Assembly (NCBI GenBank): GCA_919901855.1
Contig: CAKKQC010000073.1
Coordinates: forward strand, 1 to 20,785
From: a bacterium
GTDB taxonomy: Bacteria > Oederibacteriota > CAKKQC01
DNA length: 20,785 nt
Direction of reading: 5' to 3'
Positions 6,608 through 16,726 of the stretch are shown in pieces. The position numbers and the translations under genes were made by a program. The notes beneath the pieces were generated by a model. The model was not told the origin of the DNA and did no database searches. It saw only the letters and a program-made list of their open reading frames with translations. Positions within the stretch are counted from its first letter, which is position 1; each line of letters starts with the position of its first letter.

Positions 6608-6743
6608 GACCGGAGGCCCGCCCGGAAATACATGGCGCCCGGCGGGAACCTTGAGATGCGGTTTTCTCCCCGGCTTACTGCAGGTCCCGCGGGCGCCGCG
6701 CCGATTGTCTCATGGAATACCCCGGCGCGTCACTCCCTGGCAG

Positions 6744-8082: not shown

Positions 8083-8122
8083 AGGAAATCCAGGGACGCG
8101 CTTTAGATTCTTAGATCTTCGG
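8083..8122 (+). repeat. Repeat A, copy 1
   Basis: Reads AGGAAATCC, then AGGGACGCGCTTTAGATTCT, then TAGATCTTCGG. The family consensus is GGAAATCC followed by GGGGACGCGCTTTAGATT and TTAAGATTCTCGGGG. Directly followed by block H copy 1. Confidence 0.8.
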
Positions 8123-8124
8123 AC

Positions 8125-8278
8125 CGGATGAAGCCTGGCGTCCGGAAGGTGCCCATTGAGATGCAGCTTTTTCCGGTGCCGCTGGGTCCCCCGAACGCCA
8201 GGTGCATTATCGCACACGGAAAAGGGTGGGGGCGTGGCCCTGGTTGCCTAGTACTCCGTGGCAGGCCACAATGGCGGG
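8125..8278 (+). repeat. Block H, copy 1, with promoter-like tail
   Basis: The first 76 bases (8125-8200, from CGGATGAAGCCTGG to CCCGAACGCCA) are identical to 9279-9354 and 10975-11050. They can fold: TGGCGT near the start pairs with ACGCCA at the end, and CCGGAA pairs with TTCCGG inside. The similarity to copy 3 continues, with substitutions, through the promoter to the ATG of the next gene and stops there. Confidence 0.85.
8244..8272 (+). promoter_or_regulatory. Promoter-like pair in block H copy 1
   Basis: TTGCCT (8244-8249) and CACAAT (8267-8272) with a 17-base spacer. Each box matches the sigma-70 consensus at 4 of 6 positions. The -10 ends 6 bases before the ATG at 8279, so transcription would begin at or beside the start codon (leaderless). 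The same pair with the same spacings stands before the gene at 11129. Confidence 0.5.
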
Positions 8279-8497
8279 ATGAAGAAGGGGATGCCGAAAT
8301 ACCTGTCGACCCTGGAGGCCGCGCGCCTGCTGGAGGTTTCGACGTTTTCGATCCAGCGATGGTTCGACTTGGGGCTCTTCACGGGCCCCCACCTCCCGGG
8401 CGGGAAGCGGCGGATTACGCTGGATTCCTTCCTGGCCTTTGCGAAGAAGCACGGGTACGAGCTGAACCCCTCGGAGATCCGCGCCACCCGCGACTGA
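8279..8497 (+). CDS. Excisionase/MerR-like helix-turn-helix protein
   Basis: A 72-residue DNA-binding protein. Seen: MPKYLSTLEAARLLEVSTFS (5-24) with a MerR/excisionase helix-turn-helix, IQRWFDLGLFTG as the recognition helix and wing, PGGKRRITLDSFLAFAKKHG as the second wing and helix. It resembles BldC/HTH_17-type proteins, which bind DNA as small single-domain regulators or recombination directionality factors. The frame opens with a GTG at 8258, but that codon lies between the promoter boxes, so I chose ATG 8279; ATG 8291 is also possible. No Shine-Dalgarno is visible, in line with a leaderless transcript. No integrase is adjacent. Confidence 0.85.
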   Translation: MKKGMPKYLSTLEAARLLEVSTFSIQRWFDLGLFTGPHLPGGKRRITLDSFLAFAKKHGYELNPSEIRATRD

Positions 8498-8520
8498 GCG
8501 CCGGGCCCGCAGAAGAGGCC

Positions 8521-8602
8521 GGGGTCATCCTTCGTGATCGCGCGGTTGAAGACGCAACCGTTGCGAAGATGGCGGGAATATCATCACTTCGCACCGGATT
8601 CT
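8521..8602 (+). repeat. Repeat D, copy 1
   Basis: Begins GGGGTCATCCTTCGTGATCG and ends with CACTTCGCACCGGATTCTCC. Other copies are at 11309 and 13344. It contains a hairpin: CTTCG outside with CGAAG, and CGGTTG(C) inside with GCAACCG. This copy has one mismatch in the inner stem. Confidence 0.75.
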
Positions 8603-8636
8603 CCAGCGAAAGCCGGGAACATACATGACTCTGGAA

Positions 8637-8710
8637 GAACCGGGGACGCGAATAGCGACCAGGGCTCGGGTCAACCCCCGGCCGGGATATGGACGATCTG
8701 GCGCGAGCTG
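8637..8710 (+). repeat. Repeat F, copy 2
   Basis: From CGGGGACGCGAATAGCGACC to GATATGGACGATCTGGCGCG. It matches 6744-6802 but has about 14 extra bases in the middle. It lies just upstream of the second XRE gene. Confidence 0.65.
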
Positions 8711-8761
8711 GAGCATGCTCCCGGCCGTGGCGATCCTGCTAGAATGCCGCCAAGGACACCA

Positions 8762-9172
8762 ATGAAACAACACAAGCTCCCCCTGCGCCTGGTCCCCGGA
8801 GCCACCGAGTTCCGCGCCCGCATGGGCCAGAGGATCCGGGTGGCCCGCCAAGCCATGAACTACACCCAGGCCCAACTCGCGGCACGAAGCGGTATATCCA
8901 CCAACTTCGTCGCCCACCTGGAACGCGGCACGCGGAGCCCGTCCATCGAGACCCTCAATGCGATAGCGAATGTCCTGACCGTCCCGGTCGCGGACTTCTT
9001 CATGACGGGCAAGGCCGGTTCCGCGGCTTCGCCCGGGCGCCCCCTCGTCCGCGCGATCCACCGTCTCCTGGCGCGGATGCCGGATGCCCGCCTGCGCCTG
9101 ATCGCGGAACTGCTGGAAGCCATCGACCCCCGGGGCCCGGTGCTGCCCCCGCGATACCGGCGCCGCTCCTGA
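8762..9172 (+). CDS. XRE-family regulator with C-terminal helical tail
   Basis: A 136-residue protein. Seen: GQRIRVARQAMNYTQAQLAA (about 22-41), SGISTNFVAHLERGTRSPSI (43-62), the recognition helix and E-R-G-x-R-x-P-S turn, then LNAIANVLTVPVADFF. The tail (PLVRAIHRLLARMPDARLRL and LIAELLEAID) is probably a dimerisation helix. The frame is open upstream to 8534, but that part covers repeats D and F. An AAGGA lies 7 bases before the ATG at 8762, and a TAGAAT -10-like box lies at 8739-8744. It resembles the XRE at 6286-6531 in its helix-turn-helix but has no small partner gene downstream. Confidence 0.9.
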   Translation: MKQHKLPLRLVPGATEFRARMGQRIRVARQAMNYTQAQLAARSGISTNFVAHLERGTRSPSIETLNAIANVLTVPVADFFMTGKAGSAASPGRPLVRAIHRLLARMPDARLRLIAELLEAIDPRGPVLPPRYRRRS

Positions 9173-9211
9173 CCCGCTCCCACCTCTGGGGAAACCAGGG
9201 GACGCGCTTCA

Positions 9212-9254
9212 GGGAAATCCGGGGACGTGCTTTAGATTCTTAGATTCTCGGGGT
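9212..9254 (+). repeat. Repeat A, copy 2
   Basis: GGAAATCC followed by GGGGACGTGCTTTAGATTCT and TAGATTCTCGGGG. A truncated head (GGGGACGCGCTTCAGG) lies just before it at 9199-9214. Block H copy 2 follows 24 bases later. Confidence 0.8.
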
Positions 9255-9278
9255 GGACCAGGGCGGGCGGGCGCGGAA

Positions 9279-9389
9279 CGGATGAAGCCTGGCGTCCGGA
9301 AGGTGCCCATTGAGATGCAGCTTTTTCCGGTGCCGCTGGGTCCCCCGAACGCCAAGTGCATTGTCGCACACGGAGACGGGTGGAGGCGG
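9279..9389 (+). repeat. Block H, copy 2 (no promoter tail)
   Basis: The 76-base core (9279-9354) is identical to the other two copies. Similarity continues through CGCACACGGAGACGGGTGG and then ends. The TTGCCT/CACAAT pair is absent, and repeat E starts at 9396 instead. Confidence 0.85.
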
Positions 9390-9395
9390 ACAAGA

Positions 9396-9430
9396 TGGGG
9401 ACACATATGACTTTATAACTTTCTGGCACG
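9396..9430 (+). repeat. Repeat E, copy 2
   Basis: Reads GGGGACACATATGACTTTAT then AACTTTCTGGCAC. It matches 6570-6607 with several changes. The bases from 9431 to 9555 hold no recognised element apart from a TATACAT box near 9444. Confidence 0.55.
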
Positions 9431-9555
9431 ATCGGCGGCCGCGCTATACATCTATGGACTCCCGGGGCACGCCAGAGCCCGGCCAGGCGCCGAGATCCAC
9501 CGGAAGGCGGTCTTCTGCCCGAGTCCCCGGTCGCACTGGAGGCCCGCACGGTGCA

Positions 9556-10788
9556 ATGATACCCGCAGTAATGCGCCACGCCACCGCCGCGCTCCTCCTG
9601 GCCCTGTGGGCCCACCCCGCATCCGGCGCGGAACCCCAGGCCCTCGCGGTCCTCGACTTCCAGCCCACCAACGCCCCCGCTGGCGACGCCGGCGCCCTCA
9701 TGGGCTTCGTCCGGTCCGCGTTCGTGCGGAGCGGCACCTTCGCCATCGTGGACAAGGCCAACATGGACCGCATCCTGCAGGAGCCATCCTCCCAGCGGGA
9801 CGGATGCACGACCCCGGAGTGCGCGGTCAAGCTGGGACGCATGCTCAACGTGAACAGGATCGTGGTCGGCGAGTACACGGTGATGGGGACGACGCGGGTC
9901 CTGACCGCCTCCCTCGTGAGCGTCGACACCGGCCGGATCGAGCAGACGGCGCAGGTCAGGGGCTTCGACCTCGACTCCGCGGACGTGGCCGCCAACACGA
10001 TCGTGGCCCGGCTCCTGGCCGGCGTCGCCGCGCCACCCGCCCCCTACCCGGCCTCCGCCGGCGGTACCTCGATCCTCAAGCGCGGCATCGTCGAGGTCGG
10101 CGTCGGCCCGGCGTTCATGACGGTCGGCCAGCGGATGCGCTTCGGCGAGCCGGGCGCTGTCTACGGCTCCCCCTACGGGACGCGTGCGTACGCGCTCGGC
10201 GTGGACCTGCCGGGGACCCAGCTCCTGCCGGGAATCTCGCTGGACCTCGAGGGACGACTGCCGGTCAACGAGGCAGGGAATGCCGGGATCGGCGTCGGGG
10301 TGTCCTCCGGCGTCCTGCGATCCCCCCCCGCGGTCACGGGGAAGGTGGACTACAGCCTCTGGGAGTCCGGTCCGGATCCCTGGGTCGGCCTCTACCCCTA
10401 CAGCTACCTTATAGGCCTGGGTCGCGCCAAAATCACCGCGGTCTCGTCCTCGACGCCCGTCTTCGTCAAGCCGGCCGCCTTCATCTACCTCCGGGTGCAT
10501 CCCCGCGTCGACGTCACCCTCGGAGCGTCGTCGATGTACGTGGGCGGGCTCAGCCGGAAGGCCACCATCCAGTTCGACGACGGGACGACGCACGTCGTGT
10601 CCCTCCCCCAGCGCGGCGGGATCCACGTGACCGCGTTCCAGGCCGGTGCGATCTACCGGCTCACCGCACGCATCTCGCTTGCCGTGGCCTACGACACGTA
10701 CGGCTCACAATGGCTCGTGAACGGACCCGCCGTCAACGTCACGAACACCTTCCCCATGGCCTCCCTCTCCGTCCGCTACCGGCTGTAG
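9556..10788 (+). CDS. CsgG-like domain fused to probable outer-membrane beta-barrel
   Basis: A 410-residue exported protein. Residues 1-24 form a signal peptide (ATAALLLALWAHPASGA). Residues about 29-155 resemble CsgG/LpoB-type domains: ALAVLDFQP, FVRSGTFAIVDKANMDRIL, CTTPECAVKLGRMLNVNRIV with paired Cys84 and Cys89, and LVSVDTGRIEQTA. The part from about 165 onwards is rich in alternating polar/apolar stretches and ends SLSVRYRL, suggesting a barrel that anchors the protein in the outer membrane (inference). CsgG itself forms the curli secretion channel, but the isolated domain has several roles. GC-rich and intact; start 9571 is the alternative. It shares its domain type with the caspase protein at 13563-15344, which may point to a common pathway. 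Confidence 0.8.
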   Translation: MIPAVMRHATAALLLALWAHPASGAEPQALAVLDFQPTNAPAGDAGALMGFVRSAFVRSGTFAIVDKANMDRILQEPSSQRDGCTTPECAVKLGRMLNVNRIVVGEYTVMGTTRVLTASLVSVDTGRIEQTAQVRGFDLDSADVAANTIVARLLAGVAAPPAPYPASAGGTSILKRGIVEVGVGPAFMTVGQRMRFGEPGAVYGSPYGTRAYALGVDLPGTQLLPGISLDLEGRLPVNEAGNAGIGVGVSSGVLRSPPAVTGKVDYSLWESGPDPWVGLYPYSYLIGLGRAKITAVSSSTPVFVKPAAFIYLRVHPRVDVTLGASSMYVGGLSRKATIQFDDGTTHVVSLPQRGGIHVTAFQAGAIYRLTARISLAVAYDTYGSQWLVNGPAVNVTNTFPMASLSVRYRL

Positions 10789-10816
10789 TCCGCCGCCGGG
10801 GAGGGATCAGGAGAAG

Positions 10817-10917
10817 AGAGGGCCATACTTAGAGGCCGTAGCATTGGGGAACGGCCTCTGGAAGCAGCGGATGGATATCCAACGCGGCCGCGTGGCTTCT
10901 AATCGCGCCAGCCAGCG
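10817..10917 (+). repeat. Repeat C, copy 1
   Basis: Begins GGCCATACTTA, followed by a perfect 8-base-pair hairpin GAGGCCGT/ACGGCCTC (10832-10858), then the palindromes GGATATCC and GCGGCCGC between a GAAGC and its complement GCTTC, and ends CGCGCCAGCCAGCG. It lies just downstream of the CsgG-barrel gene. Confidence 0.8.
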
Positions 10918-10920
10918 AAA

Positions 10921-10958
10921 GGGCCGGGGACGCGCTTCAGATTTTATGATTCTCGGGG
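10921..10958 (+). repeat. Repeat A, copy 3
   Basis: CCGGGGACGCGCTTCAGATT followed by TTATGATTCTCGGGGC. It starts 4 bases after repeat C and is followed by block H copy 3. Confidence 0.8.
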
Positions 10959-10974
10959 CGGGGCGGTCGCGGAA

Positions 10975-11128
10975 CGGATGAAGCCTGGCGTCCGGAAGGT
11001 GCCCATTGAGATGCAGCTTTTTCCGGTGCCGCTGGGTCCCCCGAACGCCAAGTGCATTGTCGCACACGGAGACGGGTGGGGGCGTGCCTCCGGTTGCCTT
11101 CTGCTTCCCGTCAGGCCACAATGGCCGC
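10975..11128 (+). repeat. Block H, copy 3, with promoter-like tail
   Basis: The 76-base core (10975-11050) is identical to copies 1 and 2. The tail is homologous to copy 1 up to the base before the ATG at 11129, with substitutions in the promoter spacer but none in the two promoter boxes. Confidence 0.85.
11094..11122 (+). promoter_or_regulatory. Promoter-like pair in block H copy 3
   Basis: TTGCCT (11094-11099), 17-base spacer, CACAAT (11117-11122), then 6 bases to the ATG at 11129. Boxes and spacings are identical to those at 8244-8272 although the spacer bases differ, which argues for function. Confidence 0.5.
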
Positions 11129-11281
11129 ATGGCCACTCGCCGTCATGCCCAGCCGCGCGGTCGCGCAGGCGGGCTGGCCCGCGTCCGGAAGCTGAGCCCC
11201 GCCGCGCTGCGCCGCTTCGCCTCGCAAGGCGGCCTCGCCCGCGCCCGGAAGCTTCAAGGAAGAAGACGGGGACACGCGTAA
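11129..11281 (+). CDS. Small basic KGG-like protein, 50 residues
   Basis: A 50-residue protein extremely rich in Arg and Ala. It contains the unit GGLARVRKL twice (second time GGLARARKL), separated by SPAALRRFASQ. This resembles the short bacterial repeat G-G-x-A-R-A-x-x-L-(S/T)-P-E-x-R-x-x-I-A found in small KGG-type and histone-like basic proteins, so nucleic-acid binding is possible. The start at 11129 is chosen because the block H promoter ends 6 bases before it. No Shine-Dalgarno is visible. The last codons overlap a CGGGGACACG stretch that looks like the head of a repeat, so the natural C-terminus may have been altered. Alternative: a non-coding basic reading frame. Confidence 0.55.
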   Translation: MATRRHAQPRGRAGGLARVRKLSPAALRRFASQGGLARARKLQGRRRGHA

Positions 11282-12183: not shown

Positions 12184-12300
12184 TCAGCGGCGGCGGACCG
12201 CCTTGCGCGTGTCGGCGAGCACTCGGAGGTATAGTTCGTCCTTCGGCCTCCCCAGCGCCCGCTTACTGGCGATGACGCGGTCGAGGGGCAGAGGAAATCC
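12184..12300 (-). pseudogene. C-terminal scrap resembling an AbiEii-type nucleotidyltransferase
   Basis: The minus strand reads LPLDRVIASKRALGRPKDEL then YLRVLADTRKAVRRR and a stop at 12184. The (D/E)-x-(I/V)-I-A-S-K-R-A-x-G-R-P-K-D pattern is the characteristic C-terminal helix of small nucleotidyltransferase-fold proteins found in AbiEii/DUF-type TA systems. Only about 38 codons remain, and both ends abut copies of repeat A (12121-12159 and 12291-12333). The gene is a relic whose body has been lost. Confidence 0.65.
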
Positions 12301-12333
12301 GGGGACGCGCTTTAGATTTTAAGATTCTCGGGG
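12291..12333 (+). repeat. Repeat A, copy 5
   Basis: GAGGAAATCC, then GGGGACGCGCTTTAGATTTT, then AAGATTCTCGGGG: the consensus form. Read on the minus strand, it supplies the last codons and the TAA of the HEPN gene. Confidence 0.85.
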
Positions 12334-12728
12334 GCGGAGGCCGGCCCCTGCATCCGGGCCTCCACCCAGAGCCTGAGGTCCCGGACCATGCCGCGGCTAC
12401 GGTTCCGGTCGAAGGCCGGGGACCCGTCAAGATCCTCGTACCGGTAGAGCGTCCCGTACGGGGTGAGCTCGTCGATGCCGACCAGTGCTTCGGGAACAGG
12501 GCACTTCCCCTGCTCAAGGACCTCGATCAGGCCGCGCAGGTCGTGCGTCCGACGGAAAGGTAATCCCAGATGCGAGAGCAGGGCCTTGAGCAACTTCTCG
12601 GCGGCCTGCTGGGCGTGGAAACCCACCACGTCATCACTCACCTTGTCCGAGGCAAGGATCAGGTCCAGGACGGCCTCGTCCTCGGCGGCCTTCTTCAGGA
12701 ACCGGGCCGCCTGTTCAGCGGGACTCAT
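12312..12728 (-). CDS. HEPN-domain protein, MNT partner (module 2)
   Basis: A 138-residue all-helical protein. Seen: VVGFHAQQAAEKLLKALLSH (about 34-53), the hallmark of Pfam-type HEPN domains paired with nucleotidyltransferases, then FRRTHDLRGLIEVL (58-71) and YRYEDLDGSPAFDRNRS. HEPN partners of MNT proteins are candidate RNases. The HDL segment may hold active residues, but the canonical R-x4-6-H motif is not obvious. The ATG at 12728 overlaps the MNT gene by 14 bases. The last residues (PENLKI) and the stop codon are encoded by repeat A, so the original C-terminus has been replaced. The protein still looks full length. Confidence 0.88.
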   Translation of the reverse strand: MSPAEQAARFLKKAAEDEAVLDLILASDKVSDDVVGFHAQQAAEKLLKALLSHLGLPFRRTHDLRGLIEVLEQGKCPVPEALVGIDELTPYGTLYRYEDLDGSPAFDRNRSRGMVRDLRLWVEARMQGPASAPENLKI

Positions 12729-13562: not shown

Positions 13563-15344
13563 TCACCGCCTCACGCCCACAGGAAGGTCCTCGCCATTTG
13601 TGAAGTTGTGTGGATGCTGGCTACCGTCCGATATCCTCGCAACCATCCTGGTGACATAGCTGTTCAGCTCAAACAACTGAATCACGCCATCCATGTCGAG
13701 ATCCGCCTCGCCCTGGAGGCCGGTGAGGAGGGCATACGTGAAGGCTCCGTGGCCACGCTTTTCACCGGGGAGCTTCCATGCCGCATCTTCCAGAGATGAC
13801 TCACCGGCACGGCTGGCCGACAGAACGTACGTTCCCTCGGCTTGTCGCAATTGCTTACTGGCTTCTGCCAAGTCCTCTCCCGCCTCGCCACCCCTGGTCA
13901 TCCTCCCCATATCGAGCTCCAAGGCCCCGGAATGACAGCTATCGTTGAATACGAGCAGTTTGGACACGTTTGCCCGGATCTTCCTGGCGCTGTCCTCGAA
14001 ATCCGTCCAGCGCAAGGCATCCTCCGACAGCGTTTCAGCCGTCGAATCATACGTCATGAAGTAGTAAGCGTCAGTCGTCGCGTCCTTTCTGCCGTGTCCG
14101 GACAGGAAGATGACAACGACATCCTGAACGGAGGCTTGCCCTAGGAAGTGTTTCATCTTGCTGAGCACTTCCTTGCGCGTAACCTGCCCGTTCAGCAGGA
14201 CCTGAACATGGACCTCCCCGAAGAGTCTACCTTCCTGGCTCTTGAGCATGGCCCCGAATTGAGACGCATCAAAATCGGCAAACTGCAGCGACAATCCCGC
14301 GTCGCGATATTTCGATACGCCGATGCAGAGAGCCCACAGATTCGTCTTGAGCGCCGGAGAATGCCCGGCCGGAACCTGCTTGCCGAGCAGTTTCCGGAGG
14401 AGGACGGTGGCCACCTTCGCGGCGTCCGCCGAAGCAAAACCCGTCGAGGATTCGGCACGTTCGGTCACGCCAGTCTTCGTGTCGACCAGACGGACGGACA
14501 CCCGCGGAGTGCCCGCATACAGGGTGCATTTCCCGAGAAGGGCCTTTCTGGCACCCATGAGAGCACCCAGTTCGACCGGAGAGGTGTATGGAATGGTTCC
14601 GATCTGCTGGAATTGGTGTTCTTTCAGAGCGCGGTCCATGGTGGCACGGTCCACAACCCGATGCGTTCCGAGCTGGCCGGCGGCGTAACGGAGGATGTTG
14701 CTGAGCACGATGGCATCTCCAGCCGGAGCACCGACAGGTTCAAGATCCATCACACAGAGCACGGGATTTGGTTGGACGGCAGACGCGGCCTTCGGCATTA
14801 CACCTGATTGCACCGCCGGAATAAGCAACTTGCGCATGAGCCGTCGCACCGCAGGATCGGCCTCCGCAGGGCTGAAACCGCCCTCCTGTACCGTCTTCAC
14901 AATACGGCGCCCCTTCGTATCGAGGAGGTCAACCCACAGATAGCACTGGGCACCCAGATACCCATAGCTCCCTGTTGCGAGGAAGTCCACCACCGGCCCC
15001 GGCTCCCCAGGCAGTCCCTCGCTTTGCTCGAATCCCGTCGCCTGAAACATCGAATCCTTGAGCAACCGGAGGGCCTTCTGGTCGCTCTCGACAATCCGGT
15101 AGGTCCCCGCATTGACGGCCTCTTCTCTCACCATGTCCGCAAGAGAGGCTGCATCCACCGTGGAACTGAGCAGGGGTTCGAGATCAAGGATGGCCAGCGT
15201 TGGAGAGCCTGGCGCTCTTCCGGAAGGCTGTGCCGCGATGGCGACCGGCACCCAGCAAGACATCAAGAGGCAGGCGAGTGCCGTCATCGCTTGCGCATCA
15301 CGGTCCGGCCTTCGAGGCGACCGGGCTTGCCTTCGCCCGGTCAT
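13563..15344 (-). CDS. Exported protein: two CsgG-like domains plus caspase-like peptidase (C14)
   Basis: A 593-residue protein. A long basic start is followed by a signal segment (MTALACLLMSCWVPVAIAA). Two CsgG-like domains follow at about 49-176 (TLAILDLEP, YRIVESDQKALRLL) and 195-320 (LCVMDLEPVGAP, HRVVDRATMDRAL, LVDTKTGVTERA). The caspase-like domain spans about 335-584: LWALCIGVSKYRD, VVVIFLSGHGRKD with catalytic His417, and LVFNDSCHSGALE with catalytic Cys470. DLDMDGVIQLFE near the end is a perfect EF-hand-type loop, often seen in bacterial C14 proteins. Both catalytic residues are present, so it should be an active Cys peptidase outside the cytoplasm. The ATG at 15344 overlaps the M48 gene stop as ATGA. 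Last gene of the operon. A frame extension to 15362 is possible but less likely. Confidence 0.87.
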   Translation of the reverse strand: MTGRRQARSPRRPDRDAQAMTALACLLMSCWVPVAIAAQPSGRAPGSPTLAILDLEPLLSSTVDAASLADMVREEAVNAGTYRIVESDQKALRLLKDSMFQATGFEQSEGLPGEPGPVVDFLATGSYGYLGAQCYLWVDLLDTKGRRIVKTVQEGGFSPAEADPAVRRLMRKLLIPAVQSGVMPKAASAVQPNPVLCVMDLEPVGAPAGDAIVLSNILRYAAGQLGTHRVVDRATMDRALKEHQFQQIGTIPYTSPVELGALMGARKALLGKCTLYAGTPRVSVRLVDTKTGVTERAESSTGFASADAAKVATVLLRKLLGKQVPAGHSPALKTNLWALCIGVSKYRDAGLSLQFADFDASQFGAMLKSQEGRLFGEVHVQVLLNGQVTRKEVLSKMKHFLGQASVQDVVVIFLSGHGRKDATTDAYYFMTYDSTAETLSEDALRWTDFEDSARKIRANVSKLLVFNDSCHSGALELDMGRMTRGGEAGEDLAEASKQLRQAEGTYVLSASRAGESSLEDAAWKLPGEKRGHGAFTYALLTGLQGEADLDMDGVIQLFELNSYVTRMVARISDGSQHPHNFTNGEDLPVGVRR

Positions 15345-16726
15345 CCTCCCCCGCCTCCCCATTCGCCAAGAACCCGTTCAATCTCAGGATCGGATTTCGC
15401 TTTGAGGTACTCAACCCATGCGGATCGGCACGCCCCCCGGCACGATGCATCAAGGCTGGCTGCGTCGGCGCGGGCGCGATAGCCGACAAGACCGAGATTC
15501 CGGAGAATCACCAGTCGCGCTTTCTCGTCGGAGGGCCTCAGGCCGGACAGGATTTCGTAGGCCCGGCGCGGCCGGCCGGCATCGAGATGGGCCATCGCCA
15601 GATTGTTTCGTGCCTGCAGGTCCCCCGGACAGGCCGCCACGGCAGACTCGTATTGCTGCTGCGCCTTGACGAGCATCTCCAAGTCGCCTCCGGCCCCACC
15701 CTTGCGCGCCCGGGGCGGACCGACCTTCGCAATGAGTTCCGGCTCGAGGCACGATTCGACCAGCAGGCTGGCGCGCGGGCCCTCCATGCCGGACTCCTCC
15801 CAGAATCTGAGGTGATACGCGCATCCGAGATTACCCAGCGCGGCGGCGCTTTGGGGGAAGAAGCGCAGGATCGAGGTGAAGGTGATCACTGCGTTCCGGT
15901 GGTCTCCCGCCTCGAGCTCACCAGCCCCACTCCCGAACGAGCCCGCGGTTTTCAGGATCTGCGCCCGACCTTCCTCCAACCGGGCCAACCGCTCAGTGCA
16001 GGACGGATGATCGGAGCCCTCGACCCCCGACAGCATGCCTTCGTCTCCGTAGGCCAGATCCCCGTACTTCTCCTTGATATTCCTGAGCAACCGCACCGCG
16101 CCGTCGTACTCATAGCCGGCCCGGAGGATCCAGATGGCCCCGAAGAGGTCCGCGTTGTACTCCTGCTCCTGCCCTTCAAGGACGACGACCGAGCGCATGG
16201 CCCGCCCAAGTACGTTTGTCATCCGTTCCCGCTCGCCTTCGTTCTTCGCGACCGCCAGCACCGTCTCATCCAGCCGGCTCCCAAGTCTGCGCAAGGTCGT
16301 GGCGGTCTGAATGCTCTGCAGGTGGTGCCGGTAGACCACATGAACGGCTTCATGGCCGAGAAGGGCCGCCATAGCAGCCTCGTCCCCAGCCAGCGTCAGG
16401 ACCCAGTCCGCGGGAATGTAAATGGTCCCATCCGAAGAAGTGCAGGGACCTCCGGGATACGGATTACCCCCCTTTCTAGGTCCCACCACGAGCGCGCGCA
16501 TGGACGCACCGCCGTCCGCGACCCGCAGGATCTTCGCAAGGATGGCATCTACCAGTTGGTCATGCCGAAGCGAGTACTTCCCCTCCACGGCCTCTCCCGA
16601 GATGGCGGTGGCATCGAGTGCCTGAAGGAATGCCAAGCCGGACCCGCGATCCGAAGCGCACCACCCGGGCATGGCGAGCATGGCCAGCATGACGCCGACG
16701 GCCGACCGCACGAGATACCGCCACAC
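15341..16726 (-). CDS. Exported M48-family metallopeptidase with C-terminal TPRs
   Basis: A 461-residue protein with a signal peptide (VGVMLAMLAMPGWCA). The zinc site is HEAVH (His125, Glu126, His129), with the third ligand Glu189 in EYNADLFG, the usual M48 E-x-x-A-D. The second half is helical, with TPR-like units (LEAGDHRNAVITFTSILRFF, ALGNLGCAYHL, ARNNLAMAHLDAGRPRRAYE). This layout matches BepA/YfgC-like periplasmic proteases, which degrade or assemble outer-membrane proteins. The GTG start at 16726 lies 8 bases after the upstream stop. The gene ends in the caspase gene's start, so the two peptidases are co-translated. It is longer than the minimal M48 domain and has no membrane anchor beyond the signal peptide. 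Confidence 0.9.
   Translation of the reverse strand: MWRYLVRSAVGVMLAMLAMPGWCASDRGSGLAFLQALDATAISGEAVEGKYSLRHDQLVDAILAKILRVADGGASMRALVVGPRKGGNPYPGGPCTSSDGTIYIPADWVLTLAGDEAAMAALLGHEAVHVVYRHHLQSIQTATTLRRLGSRLDETVLAVAKNEGERERMTNVLGRAMRSVVVLEGQEQEYNADLFGAIWILRAGYEYDGAVRLLRNIKEKYGDLAYGDEGMLSGVEGSDHPSCTERLARLEEGRAQILKTAGSFGSGAGELEAGDHRNAVITFTSILRFFPQSAAALGNLGCAYHLRFWEESGMEGPRASLLVESCLEPELIAKVGPPRARKGGAGGDLEMLVKAQQQYESAVAACPGDLQARNNLAMAHLDAGRPRRAYEILSGLRPSDEKARLVILRNLGLVGYRARADAASLDASCRGACRSAWVEYLKAKSDPEIERVLGEWGGGGG

Follow-up and report, generated by a model that had tools for sequence, protein, structure and literature searches.

Small structured RNAs that lie head-to-head with the gene of a regulator or antitoxin form a general class, and attC hairpins are a feature of integron gene-cassette arrays. 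In the REP and RAYT system, short hairpin repeats lie beside genes, some of them as inverted pairs (Nunvar et al. 2010, PMC2817692), and a -10 box ahead of the start codon is a known mark of leaderless genes (Zheng et al. 2011, PMC3160421). The locus described here can be set against each of these. The window analyzed, 20,785 bases long, is an entire contig (C73) from a metagenome-assembled genome (G000; 4.68 Mb, 91 contigs), and it holds numerous small toxin-antitoxin-type genes (HEPN, nucleotidyltransferase, PIN, HicA, HTH) amid interspersed repeat families. An initial annotation had drawn attention to a block repeated identically three times within more variable surroundings. Indeed, exactly 76 bases are shared from positions 8125, 9279, and 10975, with flanking sequence that differs between the copies, and three identical 76-mers cannot have arisen through chance.

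A search of the host genome, as had been proposed, returned a fourth full copy on contig C71, which has 74/76 bases in common with the block and carries the promoter, and a fifth, diverged copy on C64 that has neither promoter nor start codon; copies 1–3 and a further copy, numbered 6, lie on C73. No credible relatives of the block were found in viral contigs, plasmids, phages, species genomes, or ∼60 relatives, and the best matches in relatives (E 0.007–0.1 over dozens of genomes) are what chance would give. One plasmid, from Halobaculum, contains a 32-base match to the block. A candidate chromosomal copy at C42:58562-58646 (E 0.1) was dropped because the shared loop motif is absent.

Like the structured RNAs encoded head-to-head with genes, the block combines a compact hairpin, its own predicted promoter, and a divergent gene; unlike them, it matches no Rfam family, at gathering or permissive thresholds. 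The surroundings share with integron arrays the unidirectional hairpin sites that separate small toxin-antitoxin cassettes, but the block has none of the attC core sites (RYYYAAC / GTTRRRY), its hairpin ends being TGCACYTGGCG / CGCCAGGCTTCAT, and was rejected as an attC site. No integron integrase scores above the cut-off, the best model matches for IntI being far below it. With the REP and RAYT system (PMC2817692), the genome shares short hairpin repeats beside genes, some as inverted pairs, and a Y1_Tnp gene that has a REP-like element, REP-A, at the 3' end and, on the 5' side, a similar stretch, GGGGACGCGCT; five of the six block copies adjoin REP-A. The block itself, however, is larger, occurs in six copies, never forms inverted pairs, and is not beside the RAYT gene. 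It was rejected as a REP element, which would be a high-copy short palindrome inverted around a RAYT gene, with only six copies and none at the RAYT gene on contig C21; the REP-like family is REP-A. What had been suspected to be a mobile promoter splits into three parts on our analysis, namely a leaderless promoter of ordinary type that belongs to an antitoxin-like gene family, one probable swap of it onto an HTH gene, and a structured-RNA candidate on the opposite strand that has no known family.

Promoters and genes adjoining the block

In copies 1 and 3, the block is accompanied on the plus strand by TTGCCT, 17 bases, CACAAT, 6 bases, and ATG, as previously noticed. The first of these leaderless promoters (8244–8281) leads into a small HTH_17/excisionase-like gene (8279–8497, plus strand), and the second (11094–11131) leads into a KGG-like gene (11129–11281, plus strand) that encodes 50 aa versus 71 aa in its chromosomal homologue. 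The boxes are kept and the spacers differ. The same promoter type stands before two unrelated genes, with the likeness stopping at the ATG. The arrangement looks leaderless, and a -10 geometry of this kind before the start codon is enriched genome-wide. In 758 kb of the host genome, TANNNT ending 6, 7, and 9 bases before an early ATG was seen 9, 9, and 14 times, where the rates at later ATG codons predict 0.9, 1.6, and 0.7, and Shine-Dalgarno-like strings before first ATGs are uncommon (16%). This enriched TANNNT-like box, ∼10–12 bases before the start codon, is the one described for leaderless genes (Zheng et al. 2011, PMC3160421); we see no difference from that description, which accounts for the ATG-adjacent promoters. 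The promoter adjoining the block is most likely the neighboring genes' own and of a type ordinary in the host genome.

A whole-genome search for TTGCMT-17-MAYAAT-6-ATG returned four sites. Three are those at copies 1, 3, and 4, and the remaining one, on C21 in the chromosome, is where a homologue of copy 3's KGG-like gene is located (57% over 47 aa). The C21 promoter matches the copy 4 promoter at 26/35 positions, and the best among 14,373 other ATG-anchored sites matches at 21. A homologue in G001, a metagenome-assembled genome from a sister genus in the same family (label Candidatus Coatesbacteria), has the same geometry, TTGCGA-17-AATAAT-6-ATG, and the C21 and G001 promoter spacers share the palindrome TGCTTAGCGGTAAGCA. 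The block is absent at the C21 site and at the G001 homologue. Since the promoter is present in both places without the block, the KGG-type gene family itself is the most likely owner of this promoter type. KGG-type small genes are thus seen in two genera, at G000:C21:247602-247849 and G001:C257:7198-7395. On C21 the gene is followed by an AbiEii-like nucleotidyltransferase gene, whose match is just below the Pfam cut-off, and the pair looks like an autoregulated antitoxin-toxin operon.

Copy 4 on C71 precedes a paralogue of the HTH gene of copy 1 (74% amino acid identity), so the copies document only one change of downstream gene. We infer that the HTH family gained the KGG-type promoter once, by recombination with its junction at the ATG, and that later spread would have been a duplication of the segment made up of repeat, block, promoter, and gene. 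This is one promoter swap and no general delivery system. The initial annotation had proposed a mobile promoter cassette that serves any gene beside it, with block and promoter moving together and switching on the adjacent gene. The same block and promoter do stand ahead of two unrelated genes and end at the ATG, but two of the five clear copies (copy 2, whose plus strand has no attached promoter or gene, and copy 5) are block alone, and two of the three promoter-bearing copies precede one gene family. The promoter, moreover, is found alone at C21 and in G001, and block and promoter are hence not a constant unit. Visual inspection of the copy alignments, with no empty site for comparison, showed neither terminal repeats nor target-site duplications. 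We consider a mobile promoter cassette very improbable.

Variation and fold of the block

Among copies 1–4, 0/77 sites are variable inside the block versus 5/28 just to its right (p 0.001). Between copies 1 and 4, 35/216 bases of the HTH gene are different. The low variation is most simply read as constraint on the block, and gene conversion could be a partial cause. The block may otherwise have no function and simply belong to a cassette (REP-A, block, promoter, gene) that was duplicated recently, in which case its identity would stem from recent copying or from gene conversion between the copies. Duplications of this cassette-like type are frequent in the contigs concerned, the whole segment is common to copies 1 and 4, and the repeats offer homology for conversion. 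Nevertheless, the block shows no changes, in sharp contrast to the sequences to its left and right, the promoter spacer and the gene among them, and copy 6 keeps the stem; we regard a non-functional segment as unlikely.

It had also been suggested that the core folds through TGGCGT/ACGCCA and CCGGAA/TTCCGG and may itself be transcribed. The former pair closes a hairpin, but the latter is absent from the best RNA fold, and good folding as RNA is a property of the minus strand, not the plus strand. There, the two ends of the invariant interval form a 15-bp stem, inside which are further helices and seven unpaired bases, AUCUCAA. The hairpins, all on the minus strand, span 8134–8202 in copy 1 (15-bp closing stem; invariant block 8125–8200), 9288–9356 in copy 2 (9279–9354), and 10984–11052 in copy 3 (10975–11050). 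The minus-strand RNA is more stable than its shuffles (z -4.2, with -3.1 and -4.0 for tighter cuts), and its fold is the strongest among 1080 windows across 5.4 kb, whereas the plus-strand fold is ordinary (z -0.7 and -1.6). Plus-strand RNA was rejected as a candidate on z values of -0.12 for the 162-base unit and -0.74 for the core. Up to four pairs of the minus-strand stem are G-U, and the plus strand would have mismatches in their place. The one stem base that varies among copies 1–4 retains pairing (C-G or U-G). On these models, any transcription of the core would more likely use the minus strand and point away from the genes.

A structure model of the core, as had been recommended, points in the same direction. 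Trained on the four near-identical copies 1–4 only, with copy 6 left out, it finds copy 6 (6621–6706, minus strand) with a minus-strand score of 29.2 bits versus 10.0 bits for the plus strand; a sequence-only model gives 10.5 bits. This diverged copy keeps the long stem with altered sequence (GGCGCCCGCGGGA/UCCCGCCGGGCGCC), which amounts to two both-side changes in the alignment from a single diverged copy, and the observed pairing and covariation are reached by 22/500 shuffles. In copy 5, one arm is lost, and the fold is no better than shuffles.

The block can also be read as a fragment of a coding gene, as open frames cross it in both directions, the minus strand giving GGPSGTGKS, a P-loop-like string with weak matches to P-loop ATPases, and the plus strand giving MKPGVRKVPIEMQLFPV. 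All three codon positions are invariant, however, and copy 5 breaks the P-loop string (by reading). There is no Pfam match, the E-values are at chance level, and the coding readings were rejected in both directions; a coding fragment is hardly credible.

Just upstream of the copy 1 hairpin is a predicted extended -10-like box on the minus strand (TGCGATAAT, 8206–8214). At this place, TGCGATAAT or TGCGACAAT occurs in copies 1–4 and TGAGACAAT in copy 6, and the motif TGnGAYAAT has four occurrences in 1.5 million strand-bases sampled. Seven bases downstream of the box is 8199–8200, the edge of the invariant block. Although copy 2 is gene- and promoter-less on the plus strand, it keeps the block together with the ∼35 bases that precede it in minus-strand direction. 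Neither a good -35 box nor an evident terminator is present on the minus strand at the block, and the box is a predicted promoter.

Our best, still tentative, explanation is that the block is a small structured-RNA unit on the minus strand, adjoining leaderless genes that have their own promoter type. The unit would be present in at least four near-identical copies inside an array that is rich in repeats and holds toxin-antitoxin and DNA-binding genes, head-to-head with the HTH gene twice and the KGG-like gene once. Transcription would start at the extended -10 box TGnGAYAAT, at the block edge, and run leftwards through ∼75 bases, and the RNA may work alone or via a bound protein, possibly on the divergent gene. 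A further proposal goes beyond this, namely that these units are a new small RNA family of the Coatesbacteria lineage, head-to-head with leaderless antitoxin or HTH genes, which spreads in an array of toxin-antitoxin genes whose hairpin repeats all point one way, with REP-like sites in the role of attC; we hold this to be quite doubtful.

REP-A elements and the unidirectional array

REP-A (GGGGACGYGCTTTAGATTTTAAGATTCTC) has more than 30 occurrences, single or in inverted pairs, and lies 10–45 bases ahead of copies 1–5 in the same orientation. In the window, the elements before copies 1, 2, and 3 are at 8090–8122, 9218–9253, and 10923–10958, all on the plus strand. The likely source of these repeats is the RAYT-like Y1_Tnp gene at G000:C21:94-1155, the stop codon of which is inside a reverse-oriented REP-A and which has the GGGGACGCGCT stretch on its other (5') side. 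Across the window and contigs C71, C64, C70, and C35, five hairpin or GGGG-headed repeat families keep one orientation per contig (21 plus and 0 minus on C73, 0 plus and 15 minus on C71), and all block copies follow the array orientation. The genes between the repeats are on both strands and are mostly of toxin-antitoxin types. The unidirectional repeats are reminiscent of strand-biased insertion or of an integron array that lacks attC sites. Because of the latter likeness, the toxin-antitoxin array, found in an uncultured phylum, merits its own study.

On the basis of the REP-A adjacency and the single orientation, a DNA hairpin repeat is a serious alternative and the main rival to a structured RNA. 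The block would then be kin to the REP-like and other hairpins of the array, would act or have acted as single-stranded DNA recognized by a transposase or recombinase, and would not itself be a gene. Consistent with this, REP-A precedes copies 1–5 closely and is found at the RAYT-like gene, repeats and block copies all share one orientation per contig, and the two strands, when modeled as single-stranded DNA, have folds of similar strength (z -2.9 and -2.7). The other array repeats likewise form hairpins, and therefore a hairpin alone is no proof of RNA. A DNA repeat is, however, at odds with the low number of copies (six), with the lack of inverted pairs and of any copy at the RAYT gene, with the RNA-type strand asymmetry via G-U pairs, and with a diverged copy that keeps the promoter-like box at its edge. 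We judge a DNA hairpin repeat to be less likely than the structured-RNA unit.

Several further features of the repeats were observed. Near-perfect inverted REP-A pairs, which form ∼60-base palindromes, are found in large contigs (C21:55092-55150, C33:22175-22232, C38:159508), and the small repeat-rich contigs have REP-A as single copies only. The HEPN gene at 12312–12728 takes its stop codon and last residues (ENLKI) from the REP-A at 12298, and further minus-strand frames likewise end in REP-A. Two contig ends, C21:1-55 and C64:1-55, share a 50-odd-base sequence (GGCCGAGGCCCCAAATCAGTTGTCG...), which is probably another repeat that broke the assembly. Finally, the minus strand of the window at 13563–16726 carries a caspase-domain (Peptidase_C14) gene beside an M48 peptidase gene with TPR repeats.
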